In this document: in pieces, positions 1 to 48,304 of the stretch
Numbering within the stretch: the stretch's first letter is position 1
How the letters are laid out: each line of letters begins with the position of its first letter
Assembly: GCA_947626745.1 (NCBI GenBank)
Contig: CANQTF010000001.1
Span: 1-64,000, forward strand
DNA from: an uncultured Lachnospiraceae bacterium
GTDB lineage: Bacteria; Bacillota; Clostridia; Lachnospirales; Lachnospiraceae
Reading direction: 5' to 3'
DNA: 64,000 nucleotides
The notes under the pieces: model-generated
The model's database searches: none
The model's input: the letters and a program-made list of their open reading frames with translations, nothing else
What the model was told of the DNA's origin: nothing
Program-made: the position numbers and the translations under genes

Positions 1-77
1 AAGTTATGTTGAACCGCCGTATGCCGAACGGCATGTACGGTGGTGTGAGAGGGCGGAGAAAATCCGCCCTACTCGAT
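1..77 (+). mobile_element. 3' end of a group II intron (domains V and VI); remainder lies upstream of the window
   Basis: Domain V-like hairpin GAACCGCCGTATGCCGAACGGCATGTACGGTGGT (11-44), then domain VI-like GGGCGGA-gaaaa-TCCGCCC (51-69) and 3' tail TACTCGAT with an A about 7 nt from the end. Confidence 0.8.
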
Positions 78-45707: not shown

Positions 45708-46436
45708 ATGTTTGACGTTTATACATATACCGGCCGGGGAGGCCGCAGTTATAATGAGGACTCGGTCGGCAGCAGCTATGACAATGACGGCGGCAGCGGG
45801 ATCTTTGTCGTGGCGGACGGCCTCGGCGGGCATGCGCTCGGCGAGGAGGCTTCCGCTGCGGCTGTGGCGGCTGTCGTTTCCGGCTGGGGAGATTTCGAGG
45901 AGGATATCGCATCGCAGCTTCGGGAGAAGATAGCACAGGCCAACCGGGATATCCTGCAGCTCCAGCAGGAAAAGAATGCCGTTATCAAGACGACGGTCGC
46001 GGCGCTTGCCGTAAACGGCGGTCAGGCGGCGTGGGCCAATGTGGGGGATTCCAGAGTGTATTTTATCCACGACGACAGGCTGCACGCCTACACGAACGAT
46101 CACTCCGTAGCCTATATGAAATACAGGGCGGGCGAGATCACCAGAGAGCAGCTCGCAACGGACGAGGACCAGTCGAGACTGCTGCGCAGCCTTGGAAGCG
46201 AGGAGCGGAATGAACCGGACGTGTATGCGGCGGATGTGGCGCTTGCGCCGGGCGATGCCTTTTTCCTCTGCTCGGACGGCGCCTGGGAATATCTGCAGGA
46301 CGAGGAGATCCTGATCGATTACCTGAAAGCCGAGACGGCCGCAGATTGGGCGGAGCTGATGCTGCTTCGGATCATGGAGCGGGTCGACGGCGAAAACGAT
46401 AATCTGTCGTTAGTGACCGTGATACTGACTGATTGA
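45708..46436 (+). CDS. PP2C-family Ser/Thr protein phosphatase
   Basis: 'GGRSYNEDSVG', 'VVADGLGGHALGEEAS', 'WANVGDSRVY', 'CSDGAWEYL', 'ENDNLSLVTV'. Confidence 0.93.
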   Translation: MFDVYTYTGRGGRSYNEDSVGSSYDNDGGSGIFVVADGLGGHALGEEASAAAVAAVVSGWGDFEEDIASQLREKIAQANRDILQLQQEKNAVIKTTVAALAVNGGQAAWANVGDSRVYFIHDDRLHAYTNDHSVAYMKYRAGEITREQLATDEDQSRLLRSLGSEERNEPDVYAADVALAPGDAFFLCSDGAWEYLQDEEILIDYLKAETAADWAELMLLRIMERVDGENDNLSLVTVILTD

Positions 46437-46477
46437 TAAAGGAGAAAGAAGGCGAAGCTGACCGATCGTCATTTTGT

Positions 46478-46506
46478 TTGCGCGAGAACGGCCGCCGTGT
46501 TATAAT
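46478..46506 (+). promoter_or_regulatory. Candidate promoter of the MFS leader transcript
   Basis: TTGCGC (46478-46483)-17-TATAAT (46501-46506). Confidence 0.6.
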
Positions 46507-46550
46507 CTGAGAGATTGGATATGCCGCATCGCGGCGGAAGGGGAAAAATC

Positions 46551-46589
46551 ATGATACTTTGTATTGCGGCGGCTCCATGCAGGGTCTGA
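46551..46589 (+). CDS. Putative leader peptide MILCIAAAPCRV
   Basis: ATG after GGAAGGGG; stop codon lies in the loop of the first leader hairpin. Confidence 0.5.
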   Translation: MILCIAAAPCRV

Positions 46590-46672
46590 GGACTGCATGG
46601 AGGAATGGCGTCATGCCGTGTTCCTCAGACTTTGCTCTTGTTCGGTGAAAGAAAACAGACAAAGGAGCAAAG
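46573..46672 (+). promoter_or_regulatory. Putative translational attenuator leader
   Basis: Hairpin CTCCATGCAG/CTGCATGGAG (46573-46602); alternative GTCTGAGGA (46584-46592)/TCCTCAGAC (46622-46630); SD-sequestering CTTTGCTCTT (46630-46639)/AGGAGCAAAG (46663-46672). Confidence 0.6.
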
Positions 46673-46675
46673 ACG

Positions 46676-47953
46676 ATGAAGACAAAAAAAGATCATAAAG
46701 TATGCGCATTGCGGGATTTTTATATCCTGTGGAGCACACAGAGCGTTTCGCAGCTTGGGAGCAGCATCACGGCGTTTGCGCTGACGCTGTGGCTGTATGA
46801 AAGGACGGGCTCGTCACTGGGCACGGCGGCGCTTACCATATGCTTCTACGGGCCTTATGTGCTCATGAGTATTTTTGCCGGCGCTTTGACGGACCGGTTT
46901 GACAAGAAAAAGCTGATGCTGGGCTGTGATCTGGCCGCCGCCTTGTGTACCGTTCTGGTATATGTCCTGTTTCGGGCAAAATGTCTGGCCCCATGGCAGC
47001 TCTATGTGATGAACGGCATATACGGCCTGATGAACACGATGCAGCAGCCCGCCTCCGAGGTGGCGATGACGCTCATCGTTCCGGAGAAGGATTACCAGAA
47101 AACGAGCGGCCTCAGATCACTGTCGAGGGCGCTCATCGACATACTGCATCCGCTGATCGCGACGGCGCTGTACTCCCTTGCGGGTCTTACCGTTGTCATA
47201 GCGGTCGATCTGAGCAGCTTTGCGGTGGCGTTTGCCGCGCTGCTGTTTTTGATCAGGCTCCCTCAGAAACAGGAAGAAAAAGAGGAGCCGTTACTTGCGC
47301 TTGCGCGGGAAGGCTTGCGCTTCTTAAGAGAGAATCCGCTTATCATGACGCTGATCCTGTTCATGGCGGGCGTAAACCTGACGGCGTCGGCCTTTGACGC
47401 GGTGCTGCCGGGCTATGTGCTCCCCTCTCCGAGAGGCGGCACGGCTGTGTTGGGCATCGTTACGTCCTGCGCGGGCGCCGCGATGGTCGCCGGCAGTCTG
47501 TTGGCCGCGGTCTTGCCGAAACCGAAAGACCGGGTGCGGGTAATCTATCTTACGATGCTGTTCTCTCTGGGCAGCGAGAATTTCCTGCTGGCGTTTTCCC
47601 GAGAGCCGGTGCTGTGGTGTATCGGCCAGATCGTCGGCTGGCTTCCGGTGCCGATCATGGAAGCGAATCTGGACGTGATACTCAGAACGAATATTCCCGT
47701 GGAACTGCAGGGGCGGGTTTATGCGTGCCGCAATACGCTGCAGTTCTTCACGATACCGATCGGGCTGTTTCTCGGCGGTTTCATGGTGGATCGGGTATGC
47801 GAGCCGTTCATGGCGGCTTACGGCGATACGGCAGTCCTTCGGACGTGCTTCGGGAGCGGCAAAGGGTCGGGCGCGGCGCTTATGCTGTTCTTTCTCGGCG
47901 TGGCCGGGAGCGCGCTGTGCATCTCTGCCGGCAGACGGCTGCGGCGACACTAA
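46676..47953 (+). CDS. MFS transporter (drug efflux-like)
   Basis: 12-TM MFS pattern; 'FAGALTDRFDKKKLML' loop 2-3 motif. Confidence 0.9.
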   Translation: MKTKKDHKVCALRDFYILWSTQSVSQLGSSITAFALTLWLYERTGSSLGTAALTICFYGPYVLMSIFAGALTDRFDKKKLMLGCDLAAALCTVLVYVLFRAKCLAPWQLYVMNGIYGLMNTMQQPASEVAMTLIVPEKDYQKTSGLRSLSRALIDILHPLIATALYSLAGLTVVIAVDLSSFAVAFAALLFLIRLPQKQEEKEEPLLALAREGLRFLRENPLIMTLILFMAGVNLTASAFDAVLPGYVLPSPRGGTAVLGIVTSCAGAAMVAGSLLAAVLPKPKDRVRVIYLTMLFSLGSENFLLAFSREPVLWCIGQIVGWLPVPIMEANLDVILRTNIPVELQGRVYACRNTLQFFTIPIGLFLGGFMVDRVCEPFMAAYGDTAVLRTCFGSGKGSGAALMLFFLGVAGSALCISAGRRLRRH

Positions 47954-47960
47954 AAATTTC

Positions 47961-47989
47961 TTGACATGGTATCCGATTTTCGGTATAAA
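47961..47989 (+). promoter_or_regulatory. Promoter of the repeat-containing small RNA
   Basis: TTGACA (47961-47966)-17-TATAAA (47984-47989). Confidence 0.8.
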
Positions 47990-48038
47990 ATAATTAGAGA
48001 TAAGCGATGCTTATCATACGGAGGTGAAGGCTTCCGTA

Positions 48039-48140
48039 AAAAGCAGTGAGTCCTACTGAGAGTGGAAACGATAAAAGCAGTGAGTCCTACTGAGAGTGGA
48101 AACGATAAAAGCGGTGAGTCCTACCGTAAGTGGAAACGAT
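48039..48140 (+). repeat. Three tandem 34-nt repeats (48039-48072, 48073-48106, 48107-48140)
   Basis: AAAAGCAGTGAGTCCTACTGAGAGTGGAAACGAT x2, then AAAAGCGGTGAGTCCTACCGTAAGTGGAAACGAT. Confidence 0.97.
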
Positions 48141-48145
48141 TGATC

Positions 48146-48171
48146 TAAGGCTGCGCACCAGCGCAGCCTTA
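48146..48171 (+). terminator. Terminator-like hairpin between repeat RNA and toxin remnant
   Basis: TAAGGCTGCGC-acca-GCGCAGCCTTA (11-bp stem), only a weak U tract downstream. Confidence 0.65.
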
Positions 48172-48214
48172 AGCTTTATCTGCAGACTGGATACGGAAAT
48201 ACAGAGGAATAATC

Positions 48215-48304
48215 ATGAAACAAAACAGACTGAATTTATATCTCATAGATATGAAATATGTGCGGAACCTTGCAAATTTTTCAAAAAATACGCTTGTCAA
48301 ATAA
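48215..48304 (+). pseudogene. Truncated N-terminus of a type III TA toxin (ToxN/AbiQ/CptN-like endoribonuclease)
   Basis: GAGGAA SD then MKQNRLNLYLIDMKYVRNLANFSKNTLVK*; 'LYLIDMKYVRNL' resembles the start of ToxN/CptN-family toxins. Confidence 0.55.

Follow-up and report, generated by a model that had tools for sequence, protein, structure and literature searches.

The window analysed here, a stretch of 64,000 nucleotides, comes from contig 1 of a draft genome of 2.69 Mb whose best named relatives are Lachnospiraceae. A 239-bp gap between a PP2C phosphatase gene (45708-46436) and an MFS transporter gene (46676-47953) contains all the elements that an earlier note had assembled into a leader-peptide attenuator, and each sequence named in that note was found in the window where it had been placed. 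The elements and the transporter gene are on the + strand. The regulated gene encodes a 425-aa protein of the DHA3/Mef(A)-like group (matches to TIGR00900 and Mef(A) models and to PF07690 and PF05977), with scores of 186 bits for TIGR00900 and 119 bits for the Mef(A) model, each under its curated cut-off. Mef(A) is the nearest named resistance family, yet its cut-off is 675 bits and the protein therefore does not qualify as a Mef(A/E) macrolide efflux pump.

The gap contains a candidate -10 element, TATAAT (46501-46506). A promoter had been claimed here, and the hexamer is indeed present, but no -35/-10 pair passed a two-hexamer sigma-70 consensus scan, so that the promoter is tentative. Downstream of it, the Shine-Dalgarno (SD) sequence AAGGGG (46538-46543) precedes a leader ORF of 12 codons plus TGA, MILCIAAAPCRV (46551-46589; ATG ATA CTT TGT ATT GCG GCG GCT CCA TGC AGG GTC TGA), and the 12-aa leader with an SD of its own was thus correctly described. 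Its 3' codons overlap hairpin 1, as had also been noted: the 5' arm (strand 1, CTCCATGCAG, 46573-46582) covers leader codons 8-11 and forms 10 bp with the 3' arm (strand 2, CTGCATGGAG, 46593-46602), and the stop codon (46587-46589) sits in the loop. Further downstream, the arms CTTTGCTCTT (46630-46639) and AGGAGCAAAG (46663-46672) form a second hairpin that overlaps the MFS SD, AAAGGAG (46661-46667), and both sequence and folding agree with the proposal that it hides this SD.

The pairing between the loop sequence GTCTGAGGA (46584-46592) and TCCTCAGAC (46622-46630), also pointed out in the earlier note, is present but was understated, since it extends to 14 bp: the anti-sequestrator 5' strand GCAGGGTCTGAGGA (46579-46592), made of leader codons 10-12, the stop codon and the loop, pairs with strand 3, TCCTCAGACTTTGC (46622-46635). 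Alternatively, the CTTTGC end of strand 3 can pair with the MFS ribosome-binding site. The other alternative put forward, GAGGAA (46600-46605) with TTCCTC (46621-46626), exists as well; it does not touch the SD and we therefore rejected it as the switch. Thus, the attenuator interpretation is supported by the conservation described below, while the pairing that switches it, the extended 14-bp leader/anti-sequestrator helix, had not been identified.

No Rfam family matched the region at its gathering score, and a permissive scan gave chance-level hits only (E of 3.8 or more). We found no description of this leader in open-licence papers; an earlier description elsewhere is possible. Two other features of the window were recorded. 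At its edge, positions 12-77 (+) match the Rfam group II intron family (RF00029, 46.1 bits). Just downstream of the MFS gene, at 47962-48304 (+), a TTGACA/TATAAA pair resembling a promoter is followed by three tandem repeats of 34 nt (48039-48140), a terminator-like hairpin rich in GC and a 29-aa ORF, MKQNRLNLYLIDMKYVRNLANFSKNTLVK; the arrangement resembles a type III toxin-antitoxin locus of the ToxIN/CptIN kind whose toxin gene is cut short. One repeat unit recurs in a same-genus genome; the 29-aa ORF had no match among the Pfam and PADLOC models.

Conservation of the leader and of two exclusive folds

We gathered relatives of the transporter from 60 same-genus genomes and from GTDB representatives. 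The earlier note had made its reading depend in part on conservation in orthologues, and this conservation is strong: leader and stems are kept upstream of nearly all the MFS orthologues found (49-83% protein identity), the exceptions being one locus without the leader (L039) and records that start too late. A purine-rich SD also precedes the leader in the orthologues. The ORF upstream of the regulated gene thus has its start codon, SD, frame and amino-acid conservation, and its translation is predicted.

The consensus of the orthologous leaders is M-x-L-C-I-[AV]-x-[AT]-P-C-[RK]-[VAG]-stop. Among the 143 leaders counted, Leu3 occurs in 123 and is encoded by all six Leu codons, Cys4 (TGC or TGT) in 100 and Cys10 in 137. 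The remaining 43 leaders have A, T, M, I, V, G, E, Y or R at position 4, mostly Ala, Thr, Met, Ile or Gly (Ala in 11, Thr in 9 and Gly in 3 of the 143), so that Cys is the commonest residue there, A, C, G or T together account for 86% of leaders and M, I, V, E, Y or R for the remaining 14%. Residues L3-C4-I5 are those conserved at the amino-acid level. The Ile5 codon is ATT in 118 of 119 cases, and this bias hints that codons 4-5 may carry an extra RNA-level or codon constraint. The closing APC[RK] of the leader hardly varies in its nucleotides, which is to be expected of a segment that doubles as hairpin 1. The front half of the leader is therefore preserved at the peptide level and the back half chiefly at the RNA level.

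The region folds better than expected (z = -2.65; 2 of 200 shuffles were equally good). ON and OFF pairings were counted in an alignment of 32 diverse sequences that was built from sequence alone, without structure fitting. The OFF form, hairpin 1 plus the SD-sequestering hairpin, is 97.6% paired in this set, and its helices covary, with compensatory changes in three hairpin 1 pairs and none of 500 shuffles scoring as high; covariation counts for strand 2 came from the 32 sequences and the wider leader set. In the OFF form CUUUGC pairs with GCAAAG, adjoining GGAG, and the computed accessibility of the MFS SD is about 0.07. The ON form is the 14-bp helix GCAGGGUCUGAGGA/UCCUCAGACUUUGC, which opens both OFF hairpins. 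Its consensus, GCARRGUCUGAGG/CCUCAGACUUUGC, is paired in 97.8% of cells (13 pairs counted), and its covariation score of 0.181, compared to 0.137 in shuffles, was reached by none of 500 shuffles and exceeds that of every slid register.

In a sister clade, UGAGGA/UCCUCA is replaced by GGGCAGU/ACUGCUC with both forms preserved; there, the 9-mer GCAAAGUCU occurs in the leader and again at the ribosome-binding site, and the two copies compete for AGACUUUGC. In the wider set, which includes one weak model match that looks like chance (L126), the ON core pairs at 9 of 9 positions in 116 of 154 leaders and at 8 or more in 139. Automatic anchoring picked CTTTGCATTG/CCATGCAGAG, a pair inside the leader, as hairpin 1 in many sequences; this was wrong and a stricter anchor was used instead. 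Finally, no intrinsic terminator was found in 46400-46700, and no U-run follows the SD hairpin, indicating translational rather than transcriptional attenuation; terminator-based attenuation was rejected.

Predicted stall site and proposed switching mechanism

We then mimicked ribosome cover in an edge scan, in which 59 leaders were folded with progressively longer stretches of 5' RNA removed (such folding ignores pseudoknots, co-transcriptional folding and real variation of the footprint). SD accessibility stayed at ∼0.07 until the edge entered CUCC and rose from there to a peak of 0.45, with the G of GCAG as the first free base, before falling to 0.18 one base further on. The rise from 0.07 to 0.45 thus occurs in silico only with the leading edge of the ribosome just ahead of the ON helix. 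For the leader in the window, the probability of the ON helix went from 0.01 to 0.87 at the peak and that of the sequestrator from 0.99 to 0.22. Shuffling the leader strand of the ON helix alone abolished the gain in SD access (mean 0.41 native versus 0.03 shuffled, p=4e-14). A ribosome at the leader stop codon was rejected as the opener, as the SD stays closed at edge +7 and beyond. Some results count against a stall switch: SD accessibility in the window itself peaks at merely 0.25, little or no gain is predicted for the cargo leaders L142, L147 and L176, and in three of four leaders that precede chloramphenicol acetyltransferase (CAT) genes the baseline is already about 0.5.

With a footprint assumed to end 15 nt past the first P-site base, the peak would correspond to a P site occupied by Ile5 (ATT, 46563-46565) and an A site occupied by Ala6. 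The nascent chain would therefore end in L-C-I, the part that is conserved as amino acids. The region, whose elements, conservation, covariation, mutually exclusive folds and edge dependence are seen in silico, is in our reading a ribosome-stall translational attenuator, with a probability of roughly 85%; this figure covers the stall-switch mechanism and not the drug. Without drug, ribosomes would traverse the 12-codon leader, hairpin 1 (strands 1:2) would form and CUUUGC would pair with the MFS ribosome-binding site, leaving the gene silent. With drug, a ribosome would be arrested early in the leader, with the peptidyl-tRNA of MILCI predicted in the P site, and its front edge would mask CUCCAU, so that hairpin 1 could not form. 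GCAGGGUCUGAGGA, just beyond the arrested ribosome, would become free to pair with UCCUCAGACUUUGC, and this ON pairing would pull CUUUGC off the SD and turn on MFS translation. A ribosome that finishes the leader would cover the anti-sequestrator strand, and the gene would stay off.

The switch would work like the ermC and cplR attenuators; its sequence, its leader and the topology of its strands set it apart as a family of its own. In ermC, a short leader ORF (ErmCL) precedes strands that pair 1 with 2 and 3 with 4 in the OFF state, the latter helix hiding the SD of the resistance gene, and the stalled ribosome sits on strand 1. The leader ORF, the four-strand OFF state, the hidden SD and the predicted occupation of strand 1 are alike here. 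In contrast, ermC pairs the freed strand 2 with strand 3, whereas here the partner of strand 3 is the leader 3' end plus the loop (46579-46592), overlapping strand 1, and the leader and cargo of ermC are unrelated to those found here. Leader attenuation before CAT genes is also known from cat-86 and catA; the CAT genes found here differ in being preceded by the new switch, whose leaders there include MKRGLDAAPCKA and MKFCIAVFPCKA. In Clostridioides difficile, cplR has a 3-codon uORF (MRI) and an intrinsic terminator, and a drug-stalled ribosome frees the SD of the resistance gene (PMC10201436). In both cases a clostridial leader ORF precedes an intrinsic resistance gene whose SD is released by ribosome stalling (predicted in our case), but here the uORF has 12 codons and there is no terminator. 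In mef(E)/mel (PMC4335068) and with the msrD leader (PMC10314930), leader attenuation likewise acts before an MFS pump that is of DHA3 type and belongs to the Mef group, the leaders having been compared without alignment. For mef(E)/mel the attenuation reported is transcriptional (PMC4335068), whereas no terminator was found here and the pump scores well under the Mef models.

Spread, cargo and candidate inducers

A first covariance model, built from the 32 MFS leaders only, matched (E of 0.01 or better) 58 of 397 genomes sampled from the family (53 of 334 genera), 39 of 392 from the order and 28 of 391 from the class, the samples overlapping; a second model added a few matches within the phylum. 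Most matches precede MFS genes. Parablautia muri is one carrier that exists in culture. Other cargo comprises CAT (PF00302, 199 bits), a PF00756 esterase, a SpoU-family methylase, CD3324-family (Mor-like) regulators and an uncharacterised hydrolase. The CAT matches were obtained with the first model, which had seen no non-MFS leaders, at per-genome E of 4e-6 to 2e-3; in these leaders, MKRGLDAAPCKA and MKFCIAVFPCKA among them, the leader start has the same offset and the strand order is unchanged. The edge-scan peak is at the same place in most cargo leaders and weaker or absent in a few. In the CD3324 cases and in L140 and L141 the hairpin is read in another frame, giving LHAK or SMQS instead of APCK, so that the RNA constraint can be separated from the peptide constraint.

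Some of these loci deserve mention on their own. Small CD3324-family Mor-like regulators with leaders in other frames lie under the switch in L121, L123, L170, L175, L176, L177 and L181, also outside Clostridia. A hydrolase-like protein of ∼430 aa with an SHTHSAPN motif follows it in L143, L145 and L147. The Pfam match of this protein to neutral ceramidase is sub-threshold (E 0.098) and a comparison with the PDB gave no useful match, so the ceramidase-like reading stays tentative. Ceramide and chloramphenicol have a common 2-acylamino-1,3-diol core, and we speculate that the hydrolase might act as an amidase on a phenicol-like drug. A putative P-loop kinase (AAA_18) follows a weak switch-like match in L182 and could be an antibiotic kinase. 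The weak, chance-like model matches L125, L126, L179, L180, L183 and L190 were excluded as examples.

What would arrest the ribosome? We infer induction by a translation inhibitor; the conservation of L-C-I, the predicted Ile5 stall and the CAT cargo put this on firmer ground than before, and the stall would be caused by a drug, namely a peptidyl-transferase inhibitor. Our best guess at its class, held at somewhat under even odds, is a phenicol-like inhibitor. Chloramphenicol and linezolid arrest best with penultimate Ala, followed by Ser/Thr (PMC8987054); this rule, the small residue at position 4 and the CAT cargo together favour such a drug. Against it, the published phenicol/oxazolidinone preference list does not include Cys, which is found most often at position 4, and 14% of leaders carry M, I, V, E, Y or R there.

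The main rival, which we consider unlikely, keeps the same switch and makes a macrolide the arresting drug, MILCI stalling the macrolide-bound ribosome and the MFS protein being a Mef-like macrolide exporter. Macrolides arrest ribosomes at +X+ motifs and also stall them on short hydrophobic leaders; the MsrDL leader, reportedly MYLIFM, is said to stall macrolide-bound ribosomes, as are Erm leaders. The main leader family has no +X+ motif, but L141, which lies before an MFS gene, uses another frame and encodes KKRVRKQ, where +X+ arrest at R-V-R would bring the edge of the ribosome to +4, a position within the range that opens the switch. The likeness to Mef(A), the closest named resistance family, and the precedent of the msrD leader (PMC10314930) also speak for a macrolide, while the protein is far under the Mef(A) cut-off (119 versus 675 bits) and the CAT cargo does not fit. 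Most of the remaining probability goes to another ribosome inhibitor, neither phenicol-like nor macrolide.

Two out of twelve leader codons are Cys, and Cys4 and Cys10 recur in 100 and 137 of the 143 leaders, as would suit a leader that senses shortage of cysteine or another amino acid, like biosynthetic attenuators. We reject this as highly improbable: Cys10 is imposed by hairpin 1 (TGC), other frames reading His-Ala or Met-Gln there, Cys4 is replaced in 43 leaders, a ribosome held up at Cys4 would reach just to the base of hairpin 1, an edge position that gives little SD access (0.16), and the cargo is resistance-like rather than concerned with cysteine metabolism. A ligand-binding riboswitch or protein-binding leader with an incidental ORF would suit the strongly conserved RNA structure and the lack of an Rfam family, but deserves very little credence, as the start codon, SD and Leu3 (in six synonymous codons) are preserved, the SD-access peak follows the ribosome stop position and the greater part of the conserved RNA falls in strands with a clear pairing partner.

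Returning to the ribosome-stall attenuator, we regard it as possible, if rather doubtful, that it is a portable switch family used as a plug-in drug sensor in many Clostridia and some other Bacillota, with a fixed scaffold on which frames (APCK-, LHAK- and SMQS-type) and cargo are exchanged. If so, the sensed drug could be swapped with the switch unchanged; the main version would sense a naturally occurring peptidyl-transferase inhibitor of the phenicol-like kind, and those cargo enzymes that are uncharacterised would represent new genes for resistance to it. The mechanism makes sharp predictions, namely ribosome stalling at codon 5 and formation of a helix for a defined position of the ribosome edge. 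The model of the switch also allows resistance genes of unknown function to be found through the switch and not through protein sequence. The switch, which probably makes resistance inducible, is widespread in gut Clostridia, a group in which the regulation of intrinsic resistance is little known.
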